Assembly (NCBI GenBank): GCA_028681035.1
Contig: JAQUJJ010000052.1
Span: 1-23,511, forward strand
Source: Candidatus Cloacimonadota bacterium
Lineage (GTDB): Bacteria > Cloacimonadota > Cloacimonadia > Cloacimonadales > Cloacimonadaceae
Direction: 5' to 3'
DNA length: 23,511 nucleotides
Part shown: one piece after another, positions 1 to 16,184 of the stretch
Position numbering within the stretch: position 1 is the stretch's first letter
Layout of the letters: every line of letters starts with the position of its first letter
Program-made: the position numbers and the translations under genes
The notes under the pieces: model-generated
What the model was told of the DNA's origin: nothing
The model's database searches: none
Seen by the model: the letters and a program-made list of their open reading frames with translations, nothing else

Positions 1-329
1 GCAAGCTGGAGTTCGATGCCAAACTGAATCTTCTCCCTGTAACGGATTTCGATGCGGTATTTCTCATCAAAACTGAGCAGCAGGGCATTACCCTTCCACT
101 CCAGTCCATTGCGTCTGGCAGCTTCAGTAAGGTAGTTCTCGACTATACCGATGATCTTCTGCTTATCGTAGATGATGCGTTCCTGCAGCTTGATGGCGTG
201 ATCCATCGCTTTTGTAACTGCTGCTTCCCTTTCAATGATTTCCTGATTGAGCACCTTGACGGATATCTCCCGTCCCTGTGCATCGATGAGGGTGCGTTCC
301 TTTGCTGTTTTAGTAGACTTACTACTCAT
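1..329 (-). CDS. DUF3164 family phage protein (3' truncated by window)
   Basis: My translation of the minus strand from the ATG at 329 gives about 109 residues before the window ends. It starts MSSKSTKTAKERTLIDAQG and includes LEWKGNALLLSFDEKYRIEI, which resembles the DUF3164 family found in early regions of Mu-like phages (Mu gp8-type). The function of that family is not established. A GGAGG lies at 336-340 (minus strand), 6 bases before the ATG, so the start is well supported. The ATG overlaps the last 8 bases of the upstream GemA-like gene, indicating translational coupling in the early operon. The C-terminus is outside the window. Family assignment is by recall of sequence style, without a profile search. 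Confidence 0.72.
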   Translation of the reverse strand, partial: MSSKSTKTAKERTLIDAQGREISVKVLNQEIIEREAAVTKAMDHAIKLQERIIYDKQKIIGIVENYLTEAARRNGLEWKGNALLLSFDEKYRIEIRYREKIQFGIELQL

Positions 330-753
330 GTGAATCCTCCTTAGGATCAATTGCTGTATTTTGAGTTGATTGTTGTTTCTTGATGTAGGACTGGAACATA
401 GCGATAACGGCTCTGCGTTCTTTCTTATCGAGCAGGTTCCAGTGACTCTTCTTATAATGGATGATCATAAAAGCCCGGAGATCGCTGTCTTTCCAGCCGA
501 CTTCTTTCATCAGGGCGAACATGTACTTGCCTTGTTTATCAAAGCTAAACTCTACCGGGCGACCATGCTTGCGGTACTTGATCATGAGTGACTTCAGCTC
601 CAGGAGCTTATCTTCGTGCAGAGCAGTTAGCGATTCTCCGAAGCCGAGACCATTCATGATGAATTTGAAGCCATCCTCGGGCCAGTGGAACTTCTTGACC
701 CGGAGGGCATGTATTTGCTGACGTAGTTGTCGTTCCCGTTGTTCCTGTTCCAT
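322..753 (-). CDS. GemA-like / Mu gp16-like early protein (DUF1018)
   Basis: A 143-residue protein. Its central and C-terminal part, with the stretches ALMKEVGWKDSDLRAFM and LLDKKERRAVIAMFQSYIKK, follows the pattern of the Mu gp16/GemA family (DUF1018): small, basic, mostly helical early proteins that in Mu affect host gene expression. An N-terminal basic segment (residues 1-25, rich in R, Q and K) probably forms a helix. Its position downstream of the A/B transposition genes and next to DUF3164 matches Mu-like early operons. It is separated by 20 bases from the gene before it and overlaps the DUF3164 start by 8 bases. The residue pattern supports family membership. The molecular role here is inferred only from the family. 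Confidence 0.7.
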   Translation of the reverse strand: MEQEQRERQLRQQIHALRVKKFHWPEDGFKFIMNGLGFGESLTALHEDKLLELKSLMIKYRKHGRPVEFSFDKQGKYMFALMKEVGWKDSDLRAFMIIHYKKSHWNLLDKKERRAVIAMFQSYIKKQQSTQNTAIDPKEDSHE

Positions 754-773
754 AGAATGCTCCCTATTCGTGG

Positions 774-1463
774 TTATTGTTGATACTTGCGACTGTAATG
801 CTCAATCAGCTCTTGAAACAATGCTCTGGCTTTTTCTCTTTGCTCCAGAATATGCATCCATTCTTGCTTCTTGGCTTCCTTGTAGGCGATGTGATCCAGT
901 CTGGCTTGTTCAGATTCTGCCTTTTTCAATACACTGAGTAGCTTGCGTTCCTCTACTTGAGCTTCGATACTAAGTTTATGAACACTGCTGTAGTTATGCC
1001 GCATCTTGCCTAAGATTCCTTGATCTATGTGCTTACCAATATCCCTTAGCTTATCCCGGGTTATCACGATGTAAGTATTACCAGACATTCCGATAATGCC
1101 TATTGAAGCGAGGGCTTCCATATAGACAAATACCCACTGGCGGCTGCGACCCATGTCTTTGGCAATAGCCCGGAGAGACTTGTAATTACCCTTCTCCACC
1201 AGATTTAGTAAGATGGTAGCAGAACCTTGATCAAACTGCCAGTCGCCTTTCTGGTTGTAACATACCTTGGGATTGTAACGGTCTATCTTGACGTATATAC
1301 CTTCTTTGAGATCGACCAACCTGATGGTCTTATTCTCCTGCAGTTCAATAAGCACAGTCTCTACGTCAGCTTCATTCTGTGCCGTCATTGCTGCCACTGT
1401 TTGAGCCGTAAAGGGCTTATTGAACTGTCTTACGAAGTTGAGTACCAAGTCGCGTGCTGTCAT
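774..1463 (-). CDS. Unrecognised early phage protein: winged-helix-like N-terminus, coiled-coil C-terminus
   Basis: A 229-residue protein I cannot assign to a named family. Residues about 1-60 (LVLNFVRQFNKPFTAQTVAA, then VLIELQENKTIRLVDLKEGIY) look like a winged helix, with a beta-hairpin wing ending in IYVKID. A second helix-turn-helix-like stretch (residues about 80-125) contains ATILLNLVEKGNYKSLRAIA and MGRSRQWVFVYMEALASIGI. Residues about 165-229 are charged and heptad-like (coiled coil). The ATG overlaps the MuB-like stop by 4 bases (1460-1463), so the two are probably translationally coupled. The duplicated DNA-binding look and its place directly after the ATPase suggest a transposition or replication accessory factor, but that is inference. 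Confidence 0.7.
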   Translation of the reverse strand: MTARDLVLNFVRQFNKPFTAQTVAAMTAQNEADVETVLIELQENKTIRLVDLKEGIYVKIDRYNPKVCYNQKGDWQFDQGSATILLNLVEKGNYKSLRAIAKDMGRSRQWVFVYMEALASIGIIGMSGNTYIVITRDKLRDIGKHIDQGILGKMRHNYSSVHKLSIEAQVEERKLLSVLKKAESEQARLDHIAYKEAKKQEWMHILEQREKARALFQELIEHYSRKYQQ

Positions 1464-2176
1464 TTTACTGCCGTAAAGTCGATGATTTTAGACTGCTGTT
1501 CATCAAAGCTCATGGTGCCATTTTCAAGGTTATGCATCATCTTGATGGCACGTCTTAAGCTGCCTTTGGCGTAGGAGTGGATTCTCTCGATGGAGTCACT
1601 GTTGATTTCCACATCCATTATTTCTTTGGCGATCAGATGAATATCTGCTCTGGTCACGGCTTTGAACTCATAGAAGGCATTGCAGCGATCAAAGTAGTAT
1701 TCACTGATCTGAGAGAGTCTATCCTTGGCATTCTGCATCCCCACCAGGATCACTACGGTTAAGGTCTCATCTACTATGTCCCGGATCGCACCCAGCAGTT
1801 TCTCATGTTGAAAGGCATAGTCGATCTCATCGATGATGATTACCGTCTCCGGGTTATCATCCAAGATCTGCATACTCATTTTGAAGATGTTATTGGTCGT
1901 TCCGGTGGGAATGAACGCTCCTAACTCAAACCGCTGATACAATGCGCTTAGCAGTTGCATTGCGAAGGACTTGGGTGTCGTGGTGGCTTCCAATCTGAGG
2001 TAGATATAGCATCTCTGGAATGCCATGCGTTGAGCATAAGTGGTCTTGCCGAGTCCCGGTCTGCCATAGATCAGTCCCAGTCCCACCATCTCCATCTTGG
2101 GTCTGTTCATCAGGTAGTTGATGCAGTGATCTGCCTCGACTACATTGGATATCTTGACGAGTAAATTCTGTTTCAT
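1460..2176 (-). CDS. MuB-like AAA+ ATPase, transposition target-selection protein
   Basis: A 238-residue AAA+ ATPase. Walker A is GRPGLGKTT (residues 38-46) and Walker B is VIIIDEID (112-119). A sensor-like VILVGMQNA precedes a region with candidate arginine-finger residues (SEYYFDRC). In Mu and related elements, the B protein binds DNA in the ATP state, marks target DNA and activates the DDE transposase. This protein is shorter than Mu B (about 312 residues) and lacks room for the N-terminal HTH of Mu B, so it is essentially the ATPase core. The ribosome binding site (GGAGG, complement of 2181-2185) overlaps the end of the transposase gene, whose stop is at 2185-2187. ExeA/TniB-type ATPases look alike, but the position next to a MuA-like transposase decides the call. 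Confidence 0.88.
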   Translation of the reverse strand: MKQNLLVKISNVVEADHCINYLMNRPKMEMVGLGLIYGRPGLGKTTYAQRMAFQRCYIYLRLEATTTPKSFAMQLLSALYQRFELGAFIPTGTTNNIFKMSMQILDDNPETVIIIDEIDYAFQHEKLLGAIRDIVDETLTVVILVGMQNAKDRLSQISEYYFDRCNAFYEFKAVTRADIHLIAKEIMDVEINSDSIERIHSYAKGSLRRAIKMMHNLENGTMSFDEQQSKIIDFTAVK

Positions 2177-2184
2177 GGTTCCTC

Positions 2185-4233
2185 CTACATTATTCCTATA
2201 AATTTGAGCATCTCTTCGAGACTCTTTTGTTTGGGCTTGATTTCGCCATCCTCATACTCCGTTAGTGGCTTCTGCTGAGGGATATCGAGCTTGTTGGGCA
2301 GTTGTTTCATTACTTCTTGTTCTAACTTCTCCAGCATCTGTTCCGGACCCGGTTTAGGTGCTTCGATGGCAGGTGCTTGGATAAAGGTGGGATTGCCTTC
2401 CAAGGCAGGCAGTGGCTTCATTAGCCTGTGAACTACCTCTTGCGACTTCTTTACCACTATCTTGGTGCGGTTGGCAATCTGCCTTTGATAGCGTTTGTTG
2501 GCTTTGATCTCTTTACTAAGCTCGGCATGGGAGATGGGATTATCCTTATCCAGATATACGAAGGGGTCTTGAGCTCTGCGGACTTCTGCCTGGCAGAGGA
2601 AGTTGTCTTGGATGTCATACACGGCGATCCATCTCAAATCTGCCAGATCGTACCTTATCACCACTTCTTTACCGATATGCTCCATCAGTTCCGTATTCCA
2701 ATACATCAGCTTGTTCAGCACTATACCGTTATTGCGTAGTGTCTTGCGTACTGCCGACATCATCATGAAGTTGAGCTTGTTGGTCTCTACCTTGCGATCT
2801 TGTGGCACCGGATAGCTGTTGAATACTACCCAGGGTTGTTTGCCGTTCAGGCCACCATGAGGGTTCTCTCCATACATGTATCTGATAAAGAAGCCGATCA
2901 TCTGCATGGCTTCTTGTATAGTGGGAGGATGACCTTCATACATCTTCCGTGCCCACTTTTCGTTACGCATCAGAGTCGCAGGTTTATCGGCAATCGAGGC
3001 TCCTCTAAAGGTGCTGATGAAGCGTTCAAACTGCTCTTGGAAGGTCTTGAAGAACCGCTCGATGATCTTGGCTTTAGCATTGTAACTCTCTGCGAAGGCT
3101 ACTTGAATACCCAGTCTGGGAAAGATACCTGCCAGATCACTTGAGAGGTCATGCTCCTGCCACTGTTCATGGAAGAGCTTACTCTTGAAAGCTTTGCCGT
3201 TATCCAGATAGACAAACTTGGGTACCGCTCCCCAGTTGAGAATAGCGTTACGGAAGGCGATCTGGATATGCTGACTGTCCTCGGTGAAGGCAAGTGATGC
3301 TCCTACCGGGTATCTCGATGCCCAGTCCATCACCATAATCATGGTCATGCGTTGGGCTTTCCCGGTCTTTGGATTGATAATATCGAAGGCAAGCACGTGT
3401 CCATCTGCCACCCAGACATCTCCCACATTGAGGAGAGTATTATCGCGGTGGATGGTCTTTACTATATCCTCTGCCACTGCCTTGCTGCCGAGTCTGGCTT
3501 GAGTCCAGATCGCTTTGTTGTTCTTTTCCCAGTCATTACACCAGCGAACCAGGGTTGGGATTGAACTGGGTGATTCCAGCGATCCCAAGCGATCATAGGC
3601 TTTAAGAGTGGTAACTGCGGTATAGACCTTTACCTTCTGCGGTGTTAGCAGCAGCTTCAGCAGGAAGTTCTGCTCCATGTATGTAACCTTGCGACCCCGC
3701 AAGTTGCTTTTACCCTTGTGGATCAAAGCAAACATATCCCGATTGGTCTCTAAATACTGATCAACCCACTTACGCAGCGAGCGTTCTGTGCGTTTACCCT
3801 TCAAACTGAAGAGTTCCGGCACCAGAGAGCCATTATTGTAATCCTCTGCTATCGAGTTCCAGGTCTCAAGCCTGGTATCGGAACATTCCAATCTCTCGAT
3901 GGCATCTTCGCAGAATCGGGAGTACAATTGAGCTTCATTCATACAACTGAGCAGTTCTTTGCTATCCGGTATCAGAACCGGATGCTCTTCCTTATATATA
4001 GGAGATGGAAGCTCCGGCTCGGGAATTGGCATTATCTCAGTTTGATTAGGCTCTGTCTTGTTAATCTTCAATTTGATTGATTTGTTATCCGTACGGATAG
4101 TTTTCTTTCGATTTCCTGCTGCTCGCAAGAACTTAACCTCTTGCCCTGATTTAATCAAAGCCATGATACGCTTGGCATCTTCATCGTAGCCTTCGGAGTT
4201 AGCTTGTGCTATGATATCTTCTATCAGTTCCAT
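2185..4233 (-). CDS. Mu-type DDE transposase (MuA-like) catalytic protein
   Basis: A 682-residue DDE integrase/transposase. The catalytic triad is visible: D277 in VWVADGH, D344 in FVYLDNGKAF and E392 in KAKIIERFF. The RNase H-like core spans about 270-410, followed by a Mu-type C-terminal beta-barrel region (about 470-570, containing RYDLADLRWIAVYD). Residues 120-245 carry helical DNA-binding domains like the end-binding domains of MuA. It would cut and join prophage ends during replicative transposition. The N-terminal enhancer-binding HTH of MuA is absent; residues 1-95 are charged and low in structure. A separate HTH protein is encoded immediately upstream, with its stop directly abutting this ATG (TAG then ATG at 4236-4231). 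The GGAGG just before that stop serves as ribosome binding site. All three catalytic residues are intact, so the gene looks functional. Confidence 0.93.
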   Translation of the reverse strand: MELIEDIIAQANSEGYDEDAKRIMALIKSGQEVKFLRAAGNRKKTIRTDNKSIKLKINKTEPNQTEIMPIPEPELPSPIYKEEHPVLIPDSKELLSCMNEAQLYSRFCEDAIERLECSDTRLETWNSIAEDYNNGSLVPELFSLKGKRTERSLRKWVDQYLETNRDMFALIHKGKSNLRGRKVTYMEQNFLLKLLLTPQKVKVYTAVTTLKAYDRLGSLESPSSIPTLVRWCNDWEKNNKAIWTQARLGSKAVAEDIVKTIHRDNTLLNVGDVWVADGHVLAFDIINPKTGKAQRMTMIMVMDWASRYPVGASLAFTEDSQHIQIAFRNAILNWGAVPKFVYLDNGKAFKSKLFHEQWQEHDLSSDLAGIFPRLGIQVAFAESYNAKAKIIERFFKTFQEQFERFISTFRGASIADKPATLMRNEKWARKMYEGHPPTIQEAMQMIGFFIRYMYGENPHGGLNGKQPWVVFNSYPVPQDRKVETNKLNFMMMSAVRKTLRNNGIVLNKLMYWNTELMEHIGKEVVIRYDLADLRWIAVYDIQDNFLCQAEVRRAQDPFVYLDKDNPISHAELSKEIKANKRYQRQIANRTKIVVKKSQEVVHRLMKPLPALEGNPTFIQAPAIEAPKPGPEQMLEKLEQEVMKQLPNKLDIPQQKPLTEYEDGEIKPKQKSLEEMLKFIGIM

Positions 4234-4842
4234 CTACTCCTCCGGGCTTACATCATTAGTATAGGAGGTAATGAACAAGCAATCCCGCTCTTCCGAGCCG
4301 AAGGTCATCCTCTCCATATTGAGATGCACTGCTTTTTGATTGTGCCTCTGGCAGTGGGACAATTCAAGATCAAGCAGTTCACGATCAGCCAAGACAAAGG
4401 TCTTAGTCGTATGTGTCTTGCCACTCGCCACTGTCCGCTTCACTGCCGCCAGACTGCCTTCACTCGTCATCCTGCGTATCGTCTTTACCGACTTTCCTGT
4501 TATGATTGCCACCCTCGTCAGTGGCAACCAGATCATGTCATACTCTTTTCCCATTTCATAACCTTCCACTCTAATCTGAATCTGTTCGTTTGGACTTGGA
4601 CAAATCTCAGAACTTGGACTTGGACATTTCAACCTGTTTGGACTTGGACATTTGCTCGGGCTTGGACATTTTCCGCAGCACTTGGACACATATTCCGCAA
4701 AAGAACGGATATTATGCCCTGATGCTATACGCAGAGAGAGCTTGTAGCCATTTTGTCCAAGTCCGATCGGAATTGCTTGGACTTGGACATTTTGCATCTG
4801 GCAGGACATACACCCTGCTGATTGTCGCTTTCTCGTGTTCAT
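4234..4842 (-). CDS. Small HTH protein upstream of transposase (possible detached MuA N-terminal domain)
   Basis: The open frame extends to an ATG at 4884, but that one has no ribosome binding site. I chose the ATG at 4842, which has GAGAGG 5 bases upstream (complement of 4848-4853), giving 202 residues. A second in-frame ATG at 4554 has GGAAGG 7 bases upstream (complement of 4562-4567) and would give a 106-residue HTH-only form. The part after 4554 has an HTH pattern: WLPLTRVAIITGKSVKTIRR, followed by a wing-like stretch and TFVLADRELLDLEL. This resembles HTH_17/MuA N-terminal domains that bind the phage enhancer. The part before 4554 contains Cys pairs and four CPSP units, but those arise from an 11-base DNA repeat, so whether that part is made as protein is uncertain. 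It abuts the transposase directly. Confidence 0.68.
   Translation of the reverse strand: MNTRKRQSAGCMSCQMQNVQVQAIPIGLGQNGYKLSLRIASGHNIRSFAEYVSKCCGKCPSPSKCPSPNRLKCPSPSSEICPSPNEQIQIRVEGYEMGKEYDMIWLPLTRVAIITGKSVKTIRRMTSEGSLAAVKRTVASGKTHTTKTFVLADRELLDLELSHCQRHNQKAVHLNMERMTFGSEERDCLFITSYTNDVSPEE
4592..4688 (-). promoter_or_regulatory. Array of five TGTCCAAGTCC-type sites upstream of the transposase HTH gene
   Basis: On the minus strand, perfect TGTCCAAGTCC copies lie at complements of 4592-4602, 4616-4626 and 4640-4650. One-base to two-base variants lie at 4658-4668 and 4678-4688. Start-to-start spacings are 24, 24, 18 and 20 bases. Three perfect copies and the 4658 variant are read as Cys-Pro-Ser-Pro; the 4678 copy is read in another frame as part of Val-Ser-Lys-Cys. 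The array occupies the place where Mu has its operator/enhancer, between the repressor gene and the transposase. The likely ligands are the repressor, the small HTH protein or the transposase; which one is inference. Confidence 0.72.
4754..4789. promoter_or_regulatory. Perfect inverted pair of TGTCCAAGTCC sites
   Basis: TGTCCAAGTCC at 4754-4764 (plus) and its exact reverse complement GGACTTGGACA at 4779-4789 form an inverted repeat with 11-base arms and a 14-base spacer. In the overlapping reading frame the two arms are read as Asn-Val-Gln-Val-Gln and Gly-Leu-Gly-Gln, unlike the Cys-Pro-Ser-Pro reading of the array at 4592-4668. The DNA motif, not the peptide, is therefore conserved. The dyad arrangement fits a dimeric regulator or a paired transposase/enhancer site. 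Confidence 0.7.
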
Positions 4843-5097
4843 TTTAACCTCTCTTATTAGTCTTGATGGGGTGCTAACTTCCATACAAGCAATATGTTGG
4901 GAAGTCCTTTCTGAGATTTACCGAGTTTTTCCGGCAGCTTTTTCATAGCCCTCAAGTTTTCCAGCCCAAACGCCATTGAGAAACACCCTGTCCAAAATTT
5001 CAGGTTGACACATCTATGCGGTTCTGTTTTTCTGTTCTAAGTTCATTTTGCTATCCGTATGGAAATTGTCAACAGCAAATTGAACAATGGAGACGTT
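4843..5097. promoter_or_regulatory. Divergent control region between early operon and repressor
   Basis: This stretch separates the leftward early operon from the rightward repressor gene and must hold promoters for both. A degenerate copy of the phage motif, TGTCCAAAATT, lies at 4989-4999. A perfect -35 hexamer TTGACA lies at 5004-5009 on the plus strand, but the sequence 16-18 bases on (TTTTCT region) is a poor -10, so the repressor promoter is only tentative. I see no convincing promoter pair for the minus strand. No gene is supported here. Confidence 0.45.
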
Positions 5098-5826
5098 ATG
5101 GCAGCCAAAGAGGTTGGAGAAAGACTGGCTATGGTAATGAAGACTATGAAGTTAAAGAACTACCAGTTTGCTAAAAAATTTAGCATCTCAGCAGCATCTT
5201 TATCCCGATATAAGTCCGGAGAGAGGTATCCAGACCCGGAATTATTGGTAAGATTATCCGAGTCCCAGGTTAATGTAAATTGGCTCTTAACAGGTAAGGG
5301 AACCACCCAGATTGTACAGGATTTTGATGGTTGGATGAAAGAGAGACTGGAAGAGAAGATGAAGGTGGTGGATAGCCAGACTGGCTTAGTTCAATCTCCC
5401 ACAATCGATTACACTCGCACAATTAGCCTGCAAATTCTCGGCGAAATTGCCGCCGGACCCAGAGAGCACATCGAAGACCTCCGGCATTTGGGCGAGAATA
5501 TTGAGATACCCCGTTCTCTGCTCCCCGGCAACTTCGCTAACTACTTGGCATTCAGAGTGAACGGTCATAGCATGGAGCCTAATATCATGCATGAGGACAT
5601 CGTTGTCATCAAACAAGAGGTAGATTGGGATTTTGCAAATGAAAGGGTCTGTGCAGTCCGAGCCGAGGACGGTACGACACTTAAGAAAGTGGAACTCGAT
5701 CATGCAAACAAGCGTGTTATTTTGCAACCATTTAATTTAGACTACAAAGTCCAGATTTTAGACTCGGATCAGGGTCTGGATATATTTCTGATCGGCATTT
5801 TGTCACTTCAGTTGCGGCTTTTTTAA
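5098..5826 (+). CDS. Phage repressor, XRE HTH plus S24 LexA-like self-cleavage domain
   Basis: The frame opens at an ATG at 5059, but no ribosome binding site precedes that. The ATG at 5098 has GGAG at 5089-5092, 5 bases upstream, giving 242 residues. Residues about 4-65 form a Cro/CI-type HTH (VGERLAMVMK, YQFAKKFSISAASLSRYKSG, NVNWLLTGKG). A linker of about 50 residues follows, then an S24 peptidase domain. In that domain an Ala-Gly candidate cleavage site lies at 119-120 (ILGEIAAGPR), the nucleophile Ser158 sits in NGHSMEPN and the general base Lys196 in TTLKKVEL. In this family, RecA-stimulated self-cleavage removes the DNA-binding domain and induces the prophage. It is transcribed away from the transposase operon as in Mu, where the c repressor lies between the left end and the operators. 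Confidence 0.9.
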   Translation: MAAKEVGERLAMVMKTMKLKNYQFAKKFSISAASLSRYKSGERYPDPELLVRLSESQVNVNWLLTGKGTTQIVQDFDGWMKERLEEKMKVVDSQTGLVQSPTIDYTRTISLQILGEIAAGPREHIEDLRHLGENIEIPRSLLPGNFANYLAFRVNGHSMEPNIMHEDIVVIKQEVDWDFANERVCAVRAEDGTTLKKVELDHANKRVILQPFNLDYKVQILDSDQGLDIFLIGILSLQLRLF

Positions 5827-5854
5827 ACTGATGCTTTGGGCTGGATGTGGGCAA

Positions 5855-6003
5855 TGTCCAAATCCAGTCCATAATCGGCTCAATTTGAAGTTATCAGTGA
5901 TTAAAACTCGTCCAAATCCGTCCAAATTCTAAATGTCCAAGTCCAAACATAGTCCATCATATCTCCCCACCACATAAAGCGTTATCCCCATTTGTCCAAG
6001 TGA
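5855..6003 (+). promoter_or_regulatory. Second array of TGTCCAAGTCC-type sites, at the presumed prophage end
   Basis: Plus-strand copies are TGTCCAAATCC at 5855-5865, CGTCCAAATCC at 5909-5919, CGTCCAAATTC at 5919-5929, perfect TGTCCAAGTCC at 5934-5944 and TGTCCAAGTGA at 5993-6003. Shorter GTCCA fragments lie between them. The region is non-coding and lies between the repressor stop and the first host promoter. In Mu-like elements this is where the transposase-binding end sites lie. Sharing the same motif with the array on the other side of the repressor suggests one protein binds both arrays. Confidence 0.68.
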
Positions 6004-6018
6004 GGACAATTTGAAGTT
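5881..6018. repeat. 12-base direct repeat CAATTTGAAGTT, two copies 126 bases apart
   Basis: CAATTTGAAGTT occurs at 5881-5892 and 6007-6018, in the same orientation, start-to-start distance 126 bases. Both lie in the non-coding stretch between the repressor stop and the first chromosomal promoter. The outer copy directly follows the last TGTCCAAG site. The pair may be part of composite transposase-binding end sites (as L1 and L2/L3 of Mu), but the exact terminal TG/CA dinucleotide of the prophage cannot be fixed without the other end. Confidence 0.6.
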
Positions 6019-6092
6019 TGGGCTGACGGTTTATATGTGATATTGTTCTCTAAGCAAGTTTCTAAAAAAAGGAGTTATAGTGGATTTTCTTC

Positions 6093-6189: not shown

Positions 6190-8178
6190 ATGAGATACAA
6201 ATTTATGATTATCTTTTTTGCGTTACTTTTAGGAGTATTCGCCTCTTGCTTTGCTGCGGCAAAGTCAGTTTATTTTGATGGCACCGGAGACTACATAACC
6301 TTGGGAGCAAACAAAACCCAAGCTGGAATGAATGGTGCCACAGGTTTAACCTTGGAAACTTGGGTTAATCCCTCAAGTCTGCGTACGGGAACGAATAGGA
6401 ACGTTATTGCTGATTTCTGTATTTCTGGTGCCAGTTCAATGGTCATGATGTATTTTACCGACAGTGGTAAATTAAGGTTTGGAGGCAGAAGCAGGTCAGC
6501 AGATAATTTTCAAGATATCCAAACTGCATCTGCTGTTGTAAGCTCAGGTTATTGGTATCATTTAGCGGGAGTTTTAGATTTTACCAATGATACTGTAAAA
6601 TTATACCTAAACGGAGAACTGATAGGTTCAAAGACCACCGGAGTTAGTTTCGGAAGTGACACTTATGTCTCTTCATCCGGTAGCACTGAAATCATAGGAT
6701 GCAATCAACCTTTAACCGCTACTCAGTACTTCCATGGTTACATGGACGATATGCGCATTTGGAGCACCCCCAGAACCCAAGCACAGATACAGTATGATAT
6801 GACAATTACCCTAGCCACTCCAAGTAATCTGCTTGGCTACTGGAAATTTGACGACAATGCCAATGATAGCTCCGGTAGTGGCTACACAGGGACTCTTATG
6901 GGCGATACAGCTTATTCCAGCACCTTGTTTCATTTCGGGAAATACTACCGTAGTATAGACACAGGTACGTGGCGAGATATTTCTAATTGGGAAGTATCGT
7001 TAGACAATTCCGATTGGGTTGCTGCTACAGTATATCCTATTGCCGAGGTTAACACTTACATACGCACTGGTGATGATATAACAATGGGTGCTAACGCCAG
7101 ATGCAAGAACCTGATTATGAATGGGGGCACACTTACAATAAGTACTTATGCTCTAAACATAACTGGAACGCTAACAGAAACGTCTGGGACTATTAGCGGA
7201 AAGCCCAATATCCTTGGCTATGCATCCTCTGCCAATAAACGCTTGGCGATCGCCGAAAGCGGAGTTATGGTTAGCGGATTCTCTGCCGCAACAAGTGTTG
7301 TTAGTAACATGCCTCAAAAGATAGATAGAGAGTGGACTCTCAACGGAACTTTCACTGGCAATAAATCTGTTACCTTCTATTGGAATGCAGCAGATGATGA
7401 TAGCTACAGTTGGGGTTCCCGTGTTCCCTCTGTCTATGATGGAGCTACAGAATACACCCAAACAGCTTACAACGTAAGCACATACCCACATTGGGTAACC
7501 GTAAGCCTTCCCTCTTTTGGAACTGATAATACCTATACAATTGGTAGAGATGATGAAGAAGCCCTACCCGTAGAATTATCTTCCTTTACAGTGGCTTTAA
7601 GTGCTTACAATAATGTTACATTACAGTGGATAACTCAATCTGAAACTAATGTTTCTGGTTTCAGGATTTACCGCAGTGTTGAAGCAAACTTTGAAACCGC
7701 AGAGATGTTGAGTCAATTTGTTGAGGCAACCAACACCTCGCAAATGCAGGTATATATGGTAACTGATAATGAGATTTATGATGATGGAACTTATTACTAT
7801 TGGTTGGAAAGCGCAGATATGGATGGTTCCAGCGAATTGCACGGGCCAATCAGCGTTAACGTGGCACTAACCAACAGCCAACCAACTCCTGAAATCCCGA
7901 TTAAACAGGGTATAATTAGTGCCTATCCCAATCCCTTCAACCCCACGGTAAACATTTCCTATATACTGGAGAAACAAGCTAAAACAGAAATATCGGTATT
8001 CAACCAGCGCGGTCAGCTAGTCCGCAGTTTGTTATCCACCGAACTTAAAAACGGACAACATAACTTGATGTGGAACGGAAAAGACAACGCAGGTAAGGAT
8101 TGCAGCAGCGGAATTTACCTGTTTGTAATGGAAACAGGAGGCAAACGCTTCACGAAACGGGCAACCCTAATGAAATAG
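6190..8178 (+). CDS. Secreted LamG/concanavalin-like surface protein with type IX sorting domain
   Basis: A 662-residue exported protein. Residues 1-23 form a signal peptide (hydrophobic FMIIFFALLLGVFASCFA, then AAA). Residues about 27-225 are a LamG/jelly-roll domain: VYFDGTGDYITLG, YWYHLAGVLDFTNDTVKLYL and a closing GYMDDMRIWSTPRT are its hallmark segments. The middle (about 250-460) is beta-rich. A fibronectin-like segment (about 463-565) starts LPVELSSFTVALS. The last 85 or so residues are a FlgD-Ig-like C-terminal sorting domain with YPNPFNP at 579-585 and the ending KRATLMK. Such domains direct cargo through type IX secretion to the surface in FCB bacteria. GGAGGA at 6181-6186 supports the ATG. 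LamG suggests carbohydrate or protein binding; the ligand is unknown. It is monocistronic: own promoter and terminator. Confidence 0.88.
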   Translation: MRYKFMIIFFALLLGVFASCFAAAKSVYFDGTGDYITLGANKTQAGMNGATGLTLETWVNPSSLRTGTNRNVIADFCISGASSMVMMYFTDSGKLRFGGRSRSADNFQDIQTASAVVSSGYWYHLAGVLDFTNDTVKLYLNGELIGSKTTGVSFGSDTYVSSSGSTEIIGCNQPLTATQYFHGYMDDMRIWSTPRTQAQIQYDMTITLATPSNLLGYWKFDDNANDSSGSGYTGTLMGDTAYSSTLFHFGKYYRSIDTGTWRDISNWEVSLDNSDWVAATVYPIAEVNTYIRTGDDITMGANARCKNLIMNGGTLTISTYALNITGTLTETSGTISGKPNILGYASSANKRLAIAESGVMVSGFSAATSVVSNMPQKIDREWTLNGTFTGNKSVTFYWNAADDDSYSWGSRVPSVYDGATEYTQTAYNVSTYPHWVTVSLPSFGTDNTYTIGRDDEEALPVELSSFTVALSAYNNVTLQWITQSETNVSGFRIYRSVEANFETAEMLSQFVEATNTSQMQVYMVTDNEIYDDGTYYYWLESADMDGSSELHGPISVNVALTNSQPTPEIPIKQGIISAYPNPFNPTVNISYILEKQAKTEISVFNQRGQLVRSLLSTELKNGQHNLMWNGKDNAGKDCSSGIYLFVMETGGKRFTKRATLMK

Positions 8179-8201
8179 ACTTAAGCTTAGCTAAAATATT
8201 A

Positions 8202-8229
8202 ACGCCGGCTCTTTTAGTCGGCGTTTTTT
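8202..8229 (+). terminator. Rho-independent terminator after the LamG gene
   Basis: ACGCCGGCT and AGTCGGCGT pair (9-base stem, one G-T pair) around the loop CTTTT, followed directly by a run of T. It lies 24 bases after the stop. Confidence 0.88.
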
Positions 8230-8481
8230 GTTTGCCCAGAATATTTGCACCCGCAAATGAGTTTAAGTGTCCTTCCCACCTTATCGGCGGGCAGAATACA
8301 CCATGCTAACAGTGGGTTTGCTAGAATCAGCACTTAGTTAATCCCAAGCCTTAATTAACATTCTAAGGCACAACATTTGTCCACGTCAACAATCACAAAA
8401 GCAAAATAATCTCAGCTTTGCACCACTTATTGCAAACATTAACAATTCAAATAGTTGATAAGTGTCGATATAGGAGATTAT
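8230..8481. other. Intergenic stretch before the C25 protease gene
   Basis: About 250 bases between the LamG terminator and the C25 start. It is A/T-rich toward its end. I find no convincing -35/-10 pair, RNA gene or repeat, though a promoter for the protease gene must lie here. Confidence 0.5.
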
Positions 8482-10077
8482 ATGCGAAAATACGTTTTAC
8501 TTGCAATGTTAGGAGTGATACACTTCCTTACCGCCAATGTGGCAATCGAAAACAACATCATGCAAACCAATAGTTTTAAGATAGAAAACAGGACATCTTC
8601 ATCGATGCAAATTACTTTTACCCTACCAGAATTCAATACAAAGAGCGAAAGCATAGGGGCTACTGTTTACAATCGTATATCCCTGCCTAATGCCAATTTC
8701 CTTACAGAATCTGGCATGCCAGAATTACCTGTTATGACTACCAATATTGCTATCCCATATAGAGGCAATGTTTCTGTTGAGGTGCTGTCCTCTTCACAAA
8801 GAGTATTATCAGGTTTCAAGCCATATCCTGCGCAGGATGGCAGTGAATCTGAAACACCCAAAGGAACAATCGTGAATAGCGAGTACTACCGCAGCGGTGG
8901 CAACTATCCCGAGGCTGAGATTCAATACAGTGACCCTATGATAATTAGGGATTTCCGGGTTATTACTATCCAAATTAACCCCTTCATATTTAATGCGCAA
9001 ACAGGTGAACTTAGCATTAGAGAAAATATCAGCTTCAGGCTTAATTTTGACAATACAATGGCTATAAACGAATTGGCGGTAGAACCCTTGAATATCTCAT
9101 CGAGCTTCTCAAACATTTATGAATCCACAATCTTGAATTACGGTGATTATCGCGGACAAATGATAGCCAATACCCCGCCCCGAATCCTCATTATCTACGG
9201 AGAGAACAATACTCAGGAATACTTGGATGCAGTTAACGCTTTTGCTTTTTGGAAAAGGCAGAAGGGTGCAGAAGTGCTTATGGCAAGTACCGCAGCAGGT
9301 GAAGCTGGTACATCAACTACTTCCATTAAAGCCTATATCCAAGCTAAATATGACAATCCTGCAACCCGCCCTGATTATGTAATCCTAATCGGCGATACAG
9401 GCGGTTCATACGCAATTCCAGCTTTTTCTGTCTCAAGTGGAGGAGGAGATTATCCCTACACTCACTTATCCGGTGACGACTTGTTGGGAGATTGTTTTAT
9501 TGGTCGTATTTCGGCGGAGAGTTTGTCGGAACTGCTTACTATATTAGCCAAAGTATATCTCTACGAAAGGGACATTAATCTAAATACGGCATCTTGGTTG
9601 AACCGGATGTTGTTAGTTGGGGATTGGTCACCTAGTGGTATCTCTACCGTTTATATAAGCAAATACATAAAAGAAATAAGCTCTGTTATCAATCCCAATT
9701 ACACTTACACAGAGATATATGGTGATGCACCGACCGCTTCAGCGATGAACGCTGCTTTAAACATGGGTGTGGGTGTCTTTGATTTTCGTGGGTATATAAA
9801 CATGTCGGGCTGGTCACCCAGTGCAAGTTTATTTAATGGTTTTAAGCTTCCTCACGCCGTAATCATTACCTGCTCAACTGGTAATTATTCGGGTAGTACG
9901 GCGACCACAGAGTCTTTCGTACGATTAGGTTCACAAGCTGTACCTCAAGGAGCTGTAACTGCCATTGGGATGAGCACCTCCACTACGCATACAACGTTTA
10001 ATAATGTGTTAACAGGCGGAATATTTGAAGGCTTATATATATATGGAATATGCGTACGATGGGCGAAGCATTGTTAA
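8482..10077 (+). CDS. C25 (gingipain-family) peptidase, 5' part of a frame-disrupted gene
   Basis: The frame runs from a TTG at 8455, but the ATG at 8482 has GGAG at 8473-8476 and begins a signal peptide (MRKYVLLAMLGVIHFLTANV), so I start there. Residues about 30-215 match a C25 propeptide (MPELPVMTTNIAIPYRGNVS). The catalytic region follows, with PRILIIYGEN, RPDYVILIGDTG, GDDLLGDCFIGRISAES and PHAVIITCSTGNYSG. Cys464 fits the gingipain nucleophile; the place of the gingipain His is Tyr438 (FDFRGYINMSGW). The frame stops early at 10077 after a TA run at 10034-10044; the rest of the catalytic domain (RTMGEALLNGK) continues in the next frame. As read, the product would be 531 residues and lack the end of the protease domain. 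Removing one TA joins the parts as GIFEGLYIWNMRTMGEALL. Confidence 0.85.
   Translation: MRKYVLLAMLGVIHFLTANVAIENNIMQTNSFKIENRTSSSMQITFTLPEFNTKSESIGATVYNRISLPNANFLTESGMPELPVMTTNIAIPYRGNVSVEVLSSSQRVLSGFKPYPAQDGSESETPKGTIVNSEYYRSGGNYPEAEIQYSDPMIIRDFRVITIQINPFIFNAQTGELSIRENISFRLNFDNTMAINELAVEPLNISSSFSNIYESTILNYGDYRGQMIANTPPRILIIYGENNTQEYLDAVNAFAFWKRQKGAEVLMASTAAGEAGTSTTSIKAYIQAKYDNPATRPDYVILIGDTGGSYAIPAFSVSSGGGDYPYTHLSGDDLLGDCFIGRISAESLSELLTILAKVYLYERDINLNTASWLNRMLLVGDWSPSGISTVYISKYIKEISSVINPNYTYTEIYGDAPTASAMNAALNMGVGVFDFRGYINMSGWSPSASLFNGFKLPHAVIITCSTGNYSGSTATTESFVRLGSQAVPQGAVTAIGMSTSTTHTTFNNVLTGGIFEGLYIYGICVRWAKHC
10034..10044. repeat. TA-dinucleotide run at the frame break of the C25 protease gene
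   Basis: TATATATATAT, five and a half TA units, lies precisely where the reading frame of the protease changes. Loss of one TA unit fuses the two frames into a single 2,016-residue product with the natural-looking junction EGLYIWNMRTMGEALL. This is either a slipped-strand mutation, a phase-variation tract or a sequencing/assembly error. Confidence 0.8.
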
Positions 10078-13000
10078 ATGGAAAACTATACATGAACCAA
10101 ATATTTGGTGTATCATCACCCACGAACGTAACTAACTTTTCGCATTGGTGCAACTTGATGGGCGACCCCACTATGGAAGTCTTTGTTGGTATTCCGTCCA
10201 CTTACCAAATTACTGCACCAGCTTCTATTCCTGTGGGCTATAGCTTATTGGATGTAGTTGTTACTGATGGTATGGGTACACCTGTTGCCAATCAGTGTGT
10301 AACTCTTTCCTTTGGCAGCGATATTCTGGCAACAGCATATTCCGATGCAGAGGGATTGGCAACGCTTAGCCTTCCTTCTCCCTTAACAGTGGGCACGGGA
10401 GTGATAACCGTATCCGGGCATAACTATAAACCCTTACAGCAGGACATCAGCTTGGTAGCAGGTGGATTAGTTCCGGGGCAAATTACCATAAATGACGACA
10501 ACATTAGTCCATCAATTGGCAACAACAATGGCTTGGCAAACGCAGGTGAGCGTATCGAGCTTACTTTTGCCTTACAAAACACCACAGCAGTTCACATGCG
10601 TGAAATTACAGGCACCATATCATGTGACAATCCCTATGTATCCATTCAAAACTCTGCAATTAGTTATGGTAGCATCTTAACTGGAACTACCCAAAGTAAT
10701 GCAAGTCCTGTGATTGTAGATATTGCTCCATCCTGTCCTGATGGAACACCTATTCGTTTTGTGCTTCAGCTCATAAACCTGAATGCCGTACAATACACAA
10801 TATCGGAGCATCTTATTGTTTACAACGGCAGGATAACGATTGTTTCTCAGACCGTGATTGATGGGCAAGATTCTGCTCTTGATCCCGATGAAGATGCTGA
10901 GCTGCGTTTTGTGCTTAGCAACTCTGGTTCATCTACGTTAACAGGTTTGAATGCCGAATTGACAAGTGTTAGTGATTTTGTAACCATAGATACAGATATC
11001 ATTAGTTATGGAAGCGCTGCACCTTCTGCTCAATTACAGCCATCAGGTAATTTTAGTGTATATGTAAATGCTCTTTGTGTTCCCGGAATGCTTATCCCTA
11101 TGAACCTAAGGGTCTTTAACGCATCTGGTTATGAACAGCAGATATCTCTTTCTTTCACGGTGGGTAATGTTTCAGTAACAGACCCTCTTGGTCCTGATGC
11201 TTACGGCTACTTGATATATGATGTGGGCGACACAGGTTATGAGGATTGTCCCTCTTATTCTTGGATGGGTATAGCTCCTGCCGAGGGAGGAAGCGGTACA
11301 CTTCTGGCAATTAGTGATGTTTACAACAGTAATGATGAAGGCGATCAGGTTGGTGCTGATGCTTTAGAAGTGGTCAATCTACCTTTTGCCTTCAGTTTTT
11401 ATGGCGTTCAATACAATACCATTACCGTTTGTAGCAATGGTTTCATCGCTTTGGGTGAAACTGGTAACGCCGAATTCAGGAACTTCCGTATCCCCGGAGC
11501 AATGGGACCCAACCCGATGATCGCAGGTTTCTGGGATGATCTGGCCACGAGCGATACTGGTAAAGTATATAGCTACTACGATTCTGCTAACCACCGTTTC
11601 ATAGTGGAATGGTATAGAATGCTAAATGGCTTCAATGGCACGAGCGAAGAAACCTTCCAAATCATTCTTTATGATCATCTCAATTCTTCTACAAGTACAG
11701 GTGACGGCACTATTCTTATGCAGTATAACACCTTTAATAATGTGGATGTTCAATCTGGAAATGAACATGGAAACTACTGTACTATTGGGATTGAAGACCA
11801 TACCGGTACAAGAGGATTGGAATACACATTTAACAATATCTACCCAACTGCAGCGGCATCATTATCAAATTCCAAAGCACTGTATATAACTACTGTTCCA
11901 AGAGTTGTCCCAGGCCCAAACATGACGATAATGGACATTCAGCACAGCGATACCAATGGCAACGGATTACTTGAACCTGGCGAAACGGATAACGCCACAA
12001 TAATCCTGAAGAACATTGGCGATGCAACGGCGACAAACGTTACTGCCACACTAAGCACAACTGACCCCTATGTAACAATAACTAATGCCACGGTTAACTA
12101 CGGTTCCATCGCTGCTCTTGCTACAGCAAATGGCTACAGCACTTATCAATTTAGCGTTTCGCCTTCATGTCCTCAGATTTATACAATAGTGGCTACATTA
12201 ACTATAACTGGAAGCAGCAATACTTGGGTTCGTACCATCCCGATTGTAATGGATATCCCTAACTTAGGCTTTGGCAATATGACAGTTACCGATACAAATG
12301 GTGATCACGATGGCAACATTGACCCCGGTGAAACTGCTGCTATCACCATCCAGCTAAACAATAGCGGTGGTGTTTCCAGCCAGGCAGGAACGGTCAACAT
12401 GAGCTGTGCCACTAACGGGATTACTGTTACAAACGGCAATGCAGCGTTTTCAGCATTAGCTGCACATGGGAGTGTAATCTTAACGTTTAATGTCACTGTT
12501 TCTTCAGAGATGGCAATCGGTTCTCTTGCTAACTTAGTATTCAATGCAACTGCTGGGATATACACTGCTTCAGCAAACAAGAGTTTAGAGATTGGCGCAC
12601 CTACAGAGATTACTATTGGTTCTGGAACCTCCGCACAATCTTATCCCATAGATCGCTATTACAATTACTCCGCCCATGAAGCTATTTACCTCGCTTCAGA
12701 AGTAGGCATAGCTGGCTCTATTAAAGCGATTGCTTTCAATAAATCCAGTGGTAGCGACGTAACTAATATTGAACCGTTCTCACTATATATGAAGAATACC
12801 AGCCAGACCTCTCTGGCTAGCGGAGATTATAGCCTTGCTGGATACACTTTAGTTTACAATGGGATATTCCCTAACAATGCTGCCAGTGGATGGATGGAAG
12901 TGAATCTGGATACTATGTTCGAGCATAACGGCATAGATAACCTTGCCATTCTTTGTTTAAATGGGTTCCAACAATACACATCCAGCTACCCATATTGGTA

Positions 13001-14534
13001 TTACACTTCTACCCCTGTAGCTCGGGCACGTCAAAACCACAGCGATAGTTCTGCTCCAAACGGTTTAACCGCCTCAAACAACCTACCCAATATCAGGATA
13101 AAGATGTTCCCGGACACCAGCGTCCTGTATCCACCAACTGATTTATCTGCCCACGGAAGCAATAGAACCGTAGCTCTTGCCTGGTCTTTACCGATTATTG
13201 GGACACCCACAGAATATAATATCTATCGTAATAACAGTCTGCTTGATACTACAACTGACTTGTTCTATTATGATATAACAGTAAGCAATGGCAACGCTTA
13301 CAGCTATTACGTTACCGCCATTTATGATGGGGAGGAATCCGTTGCTACGGCAACTTTAAACGCTACGCCTTCCTTAACTTCTGTGCCTTCCGCTACGATA
13401 GCAACAGAATCGGCAATTTCTACCAGTAACCAAGCTTGCCCAATAAATATTTACTATAAAAGCCTGCATGGGCAATCCGTCTATACCGCAGCAGAGCTTA
13501 ATGCAGCGGGCGTATATGGTCCCATAAACATTAACAAGCTAGGTTTCTACATCGTTTCTGCACCAAGCTTGGCTATGCCGAACTTCGTAATACGGATGAA
13601 ACATACTTCCGATACAAACGTATCAACCTGGCAACCTGCCGCAGGGATGCAAGCCGTTTATACAAACGCTGCATATATGCCTATTGTGGGTGGATACGAC
13701 ATGCTTACCTTTAATACACCCTTTACCTGGAATGGAACTGATAACATCGTGGTGGATACAGCCTTTGGTTTGGTAGCTAATTACTCGTCTAGCGGAACGA
13801 TACAATATTCTAGTATTCCCAATGGTTATCGTTATGCACGCAGCGATGGTTCAGACCAAAGCAATGTCTTCACAGGAGGCTCAACTGCGAGTAGCCGTCC
13901 CAATATTAAAATCTCTGTGCCTGCCGAAACTCAAAGTGCAATCATCTCCATGCCTGTAACTCCGCTTAATTTTGGCTCTATCGTTGAAGGCAGTAGCTCG
14001 GTTCAGCAAATTACTCTCAGCAACACTGGCAACCAAGTTCTTGCGGGTTATATTACTTGCCCTATAGGCTATCGTGTAGAGCTTGTAAGAAATAGTTCTT
14101 CAAACTCGGCTAAAGACGATGGAGAAGAGCAGACCAGATTGGGCTATCGTTTTACAGTTGAAGAAGGAATGAGCAAGACTTTTGCTGTTACATTCAGCCC
14201 TGCAACTCAAGGCACTTTCAGCGGCAACTTGGTGGTAACAAGTAATTCCACCACCAATAGCGTGCTGAATCGTCCTCTTAGCGGCAATGCTACTTCGGCT
14301 CCTCTGGAAACCCCACAGGCGTATATCCAGCAAAATGGTGCTTCCGTATTGATACAGTGGAATACCATCTCCAATGCAAATCATTATGAAGTGTGGAGGA
14401 GCAATAGCCCTGAAGGTCCGTTTACCATGGTAGGTACACGCACACTTCCGCAATATAACGATTTGTCTGCTGACAAGGCTTTTTATTACATTAAAGCCAT
14501 CAGCACCCCGCCTGCGAAACGGCAAAACAAGTAA
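10050..14534 (+). CDS. C25 peptidase multidomain protein, 3' part of the frame-disrupted gene
   Basis: It begins inside the protease domain (MRTMGEALLNGKLYMNQIFG, then HWCNLMGDPTMEVFVG, a typical C25 C-terminal end). The ATG at 10050 has no ribosome binding site and no signal peptide, so it is a continuation and not a separate gene. After an Ig-like domain (nt about 10195-10475) come CARDB-like beta-sandwich repeats starting near 10480, 10830, 11920 and 12280, each with a D.N.D/GE-type acidic motif (LLEPGETDNA, NIDPGETAAI). A nidogen-like module (PFAFSFYG, CSNGFIALGE) sits at about 11190-11890. Two related beta modules start near 12600 and 13380 around a fibronectin III domain (about 13130-13375). 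A final ASH-like (LNFGSIVEGSSSVQQITLSN) and FN3-like segment end in KRQNK. No C-terminal sorting domain is present, unlike the neighbouring exported proteins. Confidence 0.82.
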   Translation: MRTMGEALLNGKLYMNQIFGVSSPTNVTNFSHWCNLMGDPTMEVFVGIPSTYQITAPASIPVGYSLLDVVVTDGMGTPVANQCVTLSFGSDILATAYSDAEGLATLSLPSPLTVGTGVITVSGHNYKPLQQDISLVAGGLVPGQITINDDNISPSIGNNNGLANAGERIELTFALQNTTAVHMREITGTISCDNPYVSIQNSAISYGSILTGTTQSNASPVIVDIAPSCPDGTPIRFVLQLINLNAVQYTISEHLIVYNGRITIVSQTVIDGQDSALDPDEDAELRFVLSNSGSSTLTGLNAELTSVSDFVTIDTDIISYGSAAPSAQLQPSGNFSVYVNALCVPGMLIPMNLRVFNASGYEQQISLSFTVGNVSVTDPLGPDAYGYLIYDVGDTGYEDCPSYSWMGIAPAEGGSGTLLAISDVYNSNDEGDQVGADALEVVNLPFAFSFYGVQYNTITVCSNGFIALGETGNAEFRNFRIPGAMGPNPMIAGFWDDLATSDTGKVYSYYDSANHRFIVEWYRMLNGFNGTSEETFQIILYDHLNSSTSTGDGTILMQYNTFNNVDVQSGNEHGNYCTIGIEDHTGTRGLEYTFNNIYPTAAASLSNSKALYITTVPRVVPGPNMTIMDIQHSDTNGNGLLEPGETDNATIILKNIGDATATNVTATLSTTDPYVTITNATVNYGSIAALATANGYSTYQFSVSPSCPQIYTIVATLTITGSSNTWVRTIPIVMDIPNLGFGNMTVTDTNGDHDGNIDPGETAAITIQLNNSGGVSSQAGTVNMSCATNGITVTNGNAAFSALAAHGSVILTFNVTVSSEMAIGSLANLVFNATAGIYTASANKSLEIGAPTEITIGSGTSAQSYPIDRYYNYSAHEAIYLASEVGIAGSIKAIAFNKSSGSDVTNIEPFSLYMKNTSQTSLASGDYSLAGYTLVYNGIFPNNAASGWMEVNLDTMFEHNGIDNLAILCLNGFQQYTSSYPYWYYTSTPVARARQNHSDSSAPNGLTASNNLPNIRIKMFPDTSVLYPPTDLSAHGSNRTVALAWSLPIIGTPTEYNIYRNNSLLDTTTDLFYYDITVSNGNAYSYYVTAIYDGEESVATATLNATPSLTSVPSATIATESAISTSNQACPINIYYKSLHGQSVYTAAELNAAGVYGPININKLGFYIVSAPSLAMPNFVIRMKHTSDTNVSTWQPAAGMQAVYTNAAYMPIVGGYDMLTFNTPFTWNGTDNIVVDTAFGLVANYSSSGTIQYSSIPNGYRYARSDGSDQSNVFTGGSTASSRPNIKISVPAETQSAIISMPVTPLNFGSIVEGSSSVQQITLSNTGNQVLAGYITCPIGYRVELVRNSSSNSAKDDGEEQTRLGYRFTVEEGMSKTFAVTFSPATQGTFSGNLVVTSNSTTNSVLNRPLSGNATSAPLETPQAYIQQNGASVLIQWNTISNANHYEVWRSNSPEGPFTMVGTRTLPQYNDLSADKAFYYIKAISTPPAKRQNK

Positions 14535-14584
14535 GATAAACCAAGATAGATTCAGGGTTTACTTAACGCTGAATCCATAGACAT

Positions 14585-14619
14585 AGGGCTGCTGAGTAAA
14601 ATCGGCAGCCCTTTCTTTT
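14585..14619 (+). terminator. Rho-independent terminator after the C25 gene
   Basis: AGGGCTGC (14585-14592) and GCAGCCCT (14605-14612) form an 8-base GC-rich stem with a 12-base loop, followed by TTCTTTTG. It lies 50 bases after the stop. Confidence 0.85.
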
Positions 14620-14676
14620 GCTCGCTATAAGTGTCCGACGAGGACGTCAGACCTCCAAAGTAACCTTCTCTTATGT

Positions 14677-14788
14677 ACCTTGCTTATCCGCAACGGTTCC
14701 GAACCCTTACTGAAGCGGTGTTGATCGGGTGTTATCCCGATTAGATCCCGATCGGATCCCGATGAACACCCTTTCGGCTAAGCAAGGT
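14677..14788. repeat. Nested inverted-repeat structure in the large intergenic region
   Basis: The outer arms ACCTTGCTTA (14677-14686) and TAAGCAAGGT (14779-14788) are perfect 10-base complements. Inside, GGGTGTT (14727-14733) pairs with AACACCC (14765-14771). Between these, ATCCCGAT is repeated three times with exact 11-base spacing (14734, 14745, 14756). No reading frame is supported. It could be an interspersed non-coding repeat, a decayed miniature element or a structured RNA. Confidence 0.6.
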
Positions 14789-14793
14789 GCGTG

Positions 14794-14992
14794 TATGTAG
14801 CGCAGGACGCATTAAGTGTGGAGTCGATTTGGCTGTTCCTTATTACAAATCACCCTCTAACTTGTTAAGTCAAATGGACTACACTGGCACTAACACCACA
14901 AGGGTATGCTGTAGTCCTAAACGCCGCTGAAGATGCAGCTTATGTAAGGCTAACGATGGCGTTAACGACTCCAGATATGTAGCGCAGGACGC
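14794..14992 (+). repeat. 17-base direct repeat TATGTAGCGCAGGACGC, two copies
   Basis: Identical copies at 14794-14810 and 14976-14992. The second is followed by TGTTCCTGC, making a GCAGGA/TCCTGC hairpin (14984-15001). Another direct repeat, TGTAGTCCTAA, lies at 14910-14920 and 15202-15212. These look like short interspersed repeats filling the 780-base gene-free interval 14535-15312. Confidence 0.6.
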
Positions 14993-15077
14993 TGTTCCTG
15001 CATATAATATTGTAACAAAAGCTGTCCTCGGCTCGATCGAGGAACACCGTTCCAGCGAAAGTGCTAGTGTCTGGAGT

Positions 15078-15169: not shown

Positions 15170-15251
15170 GCTCCGGTTAATAATGCTAAAGTTACTTTGT
15201 CTGTAGTCCTAACCGGCACAGTTTGTTGTTGCAATATGCTAAGGGGTATGC

Positions 15252-15279
15252 AAAAGAAAAGCTCCACCATGCAGTGGAG
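15252..15279 (-). terminator. Rho-independent terminator for the minus-strand beta-barrel gene
   Basis: On the minus strand CTCCAC and GTGGAG (15262-15279) pair around a 6-base loop, followed by CTTTTCTTTT (complement of 15252-15261). It lies 33 bases after the stop of the beta-barrel protein gene. Confidence 0.75.
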
Positions 15280-16183: not shown

Positions 16184-16184
16184 G

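Follow-up and report, generated by a model that had tools for sequence, protein, structure and literature searches.

A motif array within the gene of a small winged-helix protein, its candidate reader, in Mu-like prophages of Cloacimonadota

Gene layout of the element and its relatives

The window analysed here is a stretch of 23,511 nucleotides from a Candidatus Cloacimonadota bacterium (GenBank assembly GCA_028681035.1, contig JAQUJJ010000052.1, positions 1 to 23,511 of the forward strand), in the first part of which lies the left end of a Mu-like prophage. The element encodes an S24/CI-type repressor, a small early protein, a Mu-family transposase and a MuB/TniB-type ATPase, and a short motif recurs on both sides of its repressor gene. 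The CI/LexA-type repressor gene (HTH_3 and peptidase S24) occupies positions 5098–5826 of the plus strand, the alignment favouring a start at 5098 over one at 5059. Next to it lies a control region (4843–5097) with promoter-like sites that face each other in the alignment (by eye), the early one having TTGACA at 5067–5072 on the minus strand. Three genes follow on the minus strand: the small early gene (4234–4842), the DDE transposase gene (2185–4233) and the gene for the AAA ATPase (1460–2176). Judged by its genes, the element is a Mu-like prophage, as the original prediction had it. It shows the hallmark of such elements, a Mu-family DDE transposase with an adjoining MuB-type ATPase, and fold comparison assigned a Mu-type fold to the transposase. 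Moreover, exact 5-base-pair (bp) target duplications, CCGGA and TCCAG, flank 5'-TATAAAG...CTTTATA-3' in two relatives that have both ends on one contig; the duplications were read from relatives, the window spanning the left end only. Two elements are ∼34 kilobases (kb) long.

Relatives were gathered by transposase alignment and comprise 59 genome loci (46 titled as Cloacimonadota-type) and 79 viral loci; of these, the final 31 are distant relatives (25–29% identity). Counts given below for 67 distinct relatives exclude copies more than 97% alike, two elements lacking an anchor (L027 and L030) and two whose array is truncated (L031 and L062). The small gene was matched in 26 of 124 genomes of the phylum Cloacimonadota (21 strong and 5 weak matches). 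Scans of viral contigs with the small protein returned 22 and 15 loci, none of them on a contig outside the existing set. Among 50,697 phage records, neither the small protein nor the DNA of window positions 1–6060 had a match; the transposase matched 159 records, always at less than 60% identity and never reaching 80% coverage. Neither these elements nor a detached enhancer-binding protein turned up among the matches listed in a search of the open-access literature (subscription papers lay outside the search).

A motif array inside the small gene

Allowing up to two mismatches, the motif TGTCCAAGTCC has 19 matches in the window against 5.1 expected, a number reached in none of 100 dinucleotide shuffles, and 13 of these matches fall within positions 4592–6003. 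Exact copies are found at 4592, 4616, 4640, 4754 (plus strand), 4779 and 5934. Within the small gene the sites form an inverted pair and a direct array. The arms of the pair, at 4754–4765 on the plus strand and 4778–4789 on the minus strand, are recognised in the alignment of relatives and keep a spacing of 25 bp in all 15 aligned elements. The direct array (4591–4688, minus strand) consists of sites at 4677–4688, 4657–4668, 4639–4650, 4615–4626 and 4591–4602, which, except for the first, are read in frame as Cys-Pro-Ser-Pro. The array described in the original prediction is thus real by these counts and by its fixed positions in relatives, and the coordinates, the inverted pair and the reading of the same bases in several frames were all correct. 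A weak copy proposed at 4989 was dropped, since it is not conserved across the 15 aligned elements (by eye).

In those 15 elements the motif is confined to the 5' half of the small gene, which precedes the transposase gene, and comes after a conserved ribosome-binding site. The small gene is taken to start at ∼4842 rather than at the listed open reading frame start, 4884, because a Shine-Dalgarno sequence and an ATG are conserved there. The spacings between array sites vary from element to element by multiples of three (by eye). In all 67 distinct relatives, 82 or more open codons run through the array ahead of the winged helix, while only 1.5% of the other two frames get to 80 codons. By these frame counts, the array lies in a real gene.

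Codons whose amino acid is conserved use a single codon in 10 of 11 cases within motif sites, compared with 3 of 29 elsewhere (15 M1 elements; Fisher p 3.4e-6). These frozen codons support the earlier proposal that selection acts on the DNA at the motif sites. The array reads CPSP or CPSG in the M1 and M2 motif classes (defined below) and CDT, TVT or VTV in the others, so that, in the translations compared, the protein text changes between classes while the array persists. Two of the outcomes named beforehand as speaking against the prediction did not come up: the motif is conserved in related elements, and it is not common in the host genomes of relatives, where exact copies fall in the contig of the element in 11 of 11 cases in G002, 8 of 10 in G004 and 7 of 12 in G001. 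The alignment of the early leader, between the repressor gene and the small gene, shows a GGC..GCC palindrome as well as a conserved AGAAAGGACTTCCCAA box; a possible RNA or protein site lies here.

Two site systems at the ends

The left terminus of the element, 5'-TATAAAC, lies at 6029–6035 on the minus strand, with the terminal base at 6035 and host DNA from 6036, where homology to the relatives breaks; such a break between element homology and host DNA is visible at nine left ends. Host genes beside the insertion (window 6190–18494) encode large proteins of secreted type (by eye). A transposase-type end site, E1 (TCAGCCCAAACTTCAAAT; 6009–6026, minus strand), stands at the terminus, and like sites cluster at the right ends of relatives. 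A second one, E2 (TCACTGATAACTTCAAAT; 5883–5900, minus strand), was placed ∼125 bp inward by alignments of left ends. Interleaved with them are two motif sites on the plus strand, La (TGTCCAAGTGAG; 5993–6004) and, ∼60 bp away, Lb (TGTCCAAGTCCA; 5934–5945). Both hold fixed positions in relatives, and their sequences follow the array class of their own element. A third copy, TGTCCAAATCC at 5855–5865 (plus strand), is clear only in M1-class elements among those displayed. Of the roughly five copies originally proposed for 5855–6003, La and Lb stand and the one at 5855 has clear counterparts in M1-type elements only, whereas the pair at 5909–5927 is not the class motif: CGTCCAAATCCGTCCAAAT is a repeat of 10-bp period, recognisable in every motif class (by eye). 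This TTTGGAC repeat (∼10-bp period) beside Lb, seen in the window and in relatives, is much alike across classes. Between La and Lb (window 5946–5992 and relatives) there is also a conserved non-coding spacer, GGGGATAA..GGTGGGGAGATA.

The end-site sequence TCAC-N7-8-[GT]CAAAT is present at both termini, and at the right ends it forms clusters of up to 7 within 260 bp, as counted with a pattern of our own. The motif of the element's own class is absent within ∼600 bp of all eight right ends that were examined (6 of phage-sized elements, 2 of compact ones), one unrelated loose match being seen at the right end of g4. Of 11 sequences searched for a right end, 7 yielded none (G003:C7, G027, G026:C163, G037, L139, L140 and L143), several of them stopping short of it. 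TGTCCAAGTCC is confined to the vicinity of the left end and to the gene before the transposase gene, and the end sites, together with the TTTGGAC repeat, stay recognisably alike in the 18 left ends compared (by eye). Because the eight right ends carry different site clusters and no own-class motif, the motif is distinct from the transposase end site, and one motif serving both ends is ruled out. The original prediction of a single motif for ends and enhancer therefore holds insofar as one motif occupies two places flanking the repressor gene; it does not replace the end sites, and it is missing from the other end, an outcome named beforehand as speaking against the prediction. As far as the site patterns tell, there are two site systems here, as in Mu, and the architecture is split, with the enhancer-binding domain apparently on a separate protein, rather than simpler as had been suggested. 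At L004:5710–5730, CTCTTTATAAAGAGTC joins the apparent ends of two elements, and in L275 an end-like sequence also stands beside the right end; both may be tandem insertions or end junctions.

Motif versions that switch together

Across the 67 distinct relatives the motif occurs in eight versions, for which we use the class labels M1–M8: TGTCCAAGTCC in M1, TGTCCAAGTGGT in M2, TGTCCAAGCGGG in M3, TGTCACAGTGCT/GGT in M4, TGTCACACCGAG in M5, TGTCACAGAGGT in M6, TGTCAAAGTGCT in M7 (L090) and TG[G/T]CACAGTCC in M8 (L078). The sites of one element mostly share one version, with a mean of 1.35 mismatches in 8 within classes and 3.90 between them. Versions are mixed in L239, in L083 (labelled M4, with an M6-like consensus), in M6 and M3 elements, and in L036 (labelled M2, mixing CCGG and GTGG). 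Left ends were located by pattern in 37 of the 67 relatives; the pattern missed the remaining 30 or they fall beyond the stretch retrieved, and among these L032, L035 and L036 show left ends by eye. In all 37 the best left-end site is within one mismatch of the version in its own array, and in 34 it is exact, an agreement reached in none of 5000 shuffles. By this comparison, array and left end change version in concert. Probably one protein reads both, in keeping with the original proposal of the same protein at both places. A role of the versions in keeping co-resident elements apart was also considered and rejected, as no avoidance was seen: a motif is shared in 8 of 54 within-genome pairs and in 128 of 1021 between-genome pairs.

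The small winged-helix protein as candidate reader

In the structure model of the small protein, residues 101–196 form a winged helix and a C-terminal part, while the array-encoded N-terminus (residues 1–100) is poorly ordered and of low confidence. The protein matches HTH_17 weakly (in 32 of 36 members, with E values up to 10) and also excisionase/Cox families; in fold comparison, BldC and Xis tie with its best matches, Mu I-alpha and the Mu repressor domain. The recognition helix (residues 118–126; 4465–4491, minus strand) and the wing (residues 140–147, SGKTHTTK; 4402–4425, minus strand) covary with different parts of the motif. With columns counted from Trp105, and over 64 rows, motif bases 5–6 go best with helix columns 16 and 19, and bases 8–11 with wing columns 40, 38, 36 and 42. 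His40 coincides with TCC in 16 of 16 cases and is found with no other motif. L078 combines an M4-type helix with an M1-type wing, and its motif is an M4–M1 mixture; this had been expected before the motif was looked at, the expectation being written down afterwards. In L090, WRR replaces WRY at the end of the helix, among other changes, and the motif differs at base 6. Among 13 distinct elements fetched later, the helix rule held in 13 of 13, the wing pattern as noted in 1 of 1 and its later His40 form in 3 of 3.

The transposase N-terminus and an apparently split domain

Window-type transposases begin without a recognisable winged helix. No N-terminal Mu_1-type or other winged-helix family was among the families listed for 37 of them, and residues 1–94 of the window-type model show two short helices followed by disorder, at low confidence. 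A profile of the small protein run against 139 transposases gave one match, in the distant relative L105. In 14 distant relatives without the small gene, profile alignment matches the first domain of the transposase to the separate winged helix (hhalign; probability 95%, E 1.8e-8, 49 columns), compared with 0.4% for the window-type N-termini used as a control. These 14 include L042, L043, L045, L050, L101 and L102, in which the region between the repressor and transposase genes has no array or was unscored. In these comparisons the winged helix is either separate or fused to the transposase, not both. Alignment to the MuA structure was dropped as a sign that I-alpha had been lost, the crystallised MuA chain being without I-alpha.

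Directly behind the fused winged helix, the transposase gene of L105 carries eight copies of TGTCG[TC]TGA (L105:1468–1559), which occur nowhere else in 13.2 kb. In L106, which lies outside the 14 and whose transposase also begins with a helix-turn-helix (HTH_17), five copies of AACGAACC occupy the same location behind the fused N-terminal domain (L106:1661–1760). For comparison, the commonest 8-mers in 300 crude block shuffles reached 4 and 3 copies. Because these arrays lie behind a fused domain, the combination of a winged helix and sites within its own gene may predate the split.

Compact derivatives

L024–L026 are elements of ∼4 kb (the first at L024:9188–13226, with L025 and L026 being 97.3% and 92.6% alike to L024) whose left flanks differ. 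They hold a left end, La, Lb, the array, the transposase and the ATPase, with one extra gene in L024, and the segment encoded by the array runs on in frame into the transposase. Neither a repressor nor a winged helix was found in these three elements, and no matching 5-bp duplication was found for L024 and L026. L013 and L015 begin in the same way, as compact elements with transposase and ATPase in which no repressor or winged helix was found. In L018–L020 (89–92% alike), a second lineage without repressor or winged helix, the array and the left-end sites persist, save for one Lb that is degraded in L020; in the record of L019 a gap of N lies between them. All these derivatives argue that the sites matter beyond the control of lysogeny, or else are relics.

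A probable Mu-type enhancer read by a separate protein

We consider it probable that the array is a Mu-type operator/enhancer whose main reader is the separate small winged-helix protein encoded by the array-bearing gene. The protein would be a stand-alone counterpart of the enhancer-binding domain, I-alpha, which is N-terminal in the transposases of Mu and of the distant relatives. It would bind the inverted pair and the direct array in the body of its own gene, and would also bind La and Lb, which would act as docking sites among the transposase end sites. By bridging the array and the left end across ∼1.2 kb, it would present that end to the transposase on its own sites, and would also couple early transcription across the small gene to the bridged state. 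Comparison of the relatives provides the sites and their fixed geometry, the selection on DNA, the concerted switching, the covariation of helix and wing, and the separate or fused state of the winged helix; from these we infer binding, bridging and an effect on transposition or transcription. Some observations weigh against this protein as the reader. Its covariation with the motif is partly shared history, and columns of the repressor and the transposase score similarly with the motif in the 43 elements that have all three proteins. Neither mutual information nor counts of changes on the tree (8, 9 and 10 changes) discriminate, and both were set aside as proof of the reader.

The CI/S24 repressor might compete with the winged-helix protein for the motif, which as a shared operator would silence the early gene in the lysogen and serve transposition in the lytic phase. 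Mu has such a shared operator/enhancer. Among 44 elements, repressor residue Ile49 is present in precisely the five with CC at motif bases 8–9. One of these is L087, with a repressor of 80% overall identity to that of L092 (M4) and 41–45% to those of L007 and L008 (M5). Residue 46 follows bases 5–6, yet through a single change on the tree. Repeats near the promoter fail to follow the recognition segment of the repressor cleanly, similar segments in L051/L077 and in L007/L008 going with dissimilar repeats (by eye), which would also suit a shared operator. However, the promoter region has inverted repeats of its own regardless of array class, such as GTGAAC..GTTCAC in L007 (M5) and in L038, L075, L080 and L082 (M4). 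L004 (M2) and L005 (M1) differ in motif despite an identical recognition segment, ten M1 elements combine one motif with seven recognition segments, and compact elements without a repressor retain the array. L004/L005 and the class-independent promoter repeats led us to reject the repressor as sole reader, though not as co-reader; competition for a shared operator appears to us unlikely, though worth keeping in mind.

The small protein might instead merely damp early transcription, through sites in its gene body and at the left end, in the manner of Ner and with no role in transposition. In Mu, ner holds the first position among the early genes, as the small gene does here, and the sites are found on the downstream side of the early promoter-like site. 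Yet La and Lb, on the far side of the repressor gene, are flanked by transposase end sites and are retained in compact elements lacking both the repressor and the winged helix, and the related domain in distant relatives is part of the transposase; autoregulation alone is thus improbable. That the transposase itself reads the motif, as the original prediction supposed for both places, would fit L018–L020 and L024–L026, where sites and transposase persist without a winged helix. The transposase must act at both ends, though, and all eight right ends are without the own-class motif and carry a different site cluster, recognisable across motif classes, so that we regard this reading as very improbable.

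A Mu-type enhancer with a separate reader can be compared with known systems. The Mu enhancer lies on the left side, between the repressor gene and the A gene. Mu and D108 are related phages with similar ends that differ in operator/enhancer specificity and in N-terminal domains; those are two versions, with the domain fused to the transposase, whereas here there are eight versions and a pattern in helix and wing. Small winged helices of the Cox/Xis/MerR type act in excision or transcription. The small protein resembles them in its weak family matches and fold ties; here, in contrast, its gene comes first among the early genes of a transposing phage and contains sites of its own. In the Mu transposase, I-alpha binds the enhancer while I-beta and I-gamma bind the ends (PMC3362531). 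As in Mu, there is an internal cluster between the repressor and transposase genes, here with a putative winged-helix reader, comparable to the operator/enhancer (internal activation sequence, IAS) with I-alpha; the end sites differ in sequence from the internal sites, being read in Mu by other domains; and 5-bp staggered joining goes with a MuB-like ATPase (PMC3362531, PMC3820752). Unlike in Mu, the winged helix is not the N-terminal domain of the window-type transposase; the reader is apparently a separate protein with sites inside its own coding sequence, copies stand at the left end, and there are many specificities. Transposable prophages of Leptospira likewise have Mu-type transposases without the enhancer-binding domain, although the accessible text of the 2021 study describes no separate reader there and says of that domain that it 'so far appears specific to Mu' (PMC8705779).

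For the family as a whole, we give about even chances to a broader picture. A Mu-type domain would have become detached, with the enhancer inside the gene of its dedicated reader, and reader and sites would form one module that drifts through at least eight specificities while the end sites stay much the same. The pattern in helix and wing would let sites be predicted from the protein, and compact derivatives without a repressor would keep the sites and may borrow a reader in trans. In DNA topology the Mu enhancer is a classic; as late as 2021 its binding domain was described as apparently Mu-specific (PMC8705779). Here is a natural family in which the enhancer-binding function seems detached and the sites lie inside the gene of the putative reader, the domain being fused in distant relatives, and in which dozens of natural variants separate the contributions of helix and wing. 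Two questions would come within direct reach of tests: how specificity shifts jointly in a protein and in its scattered sites, and what an enhancer contributes when it touches one end only.
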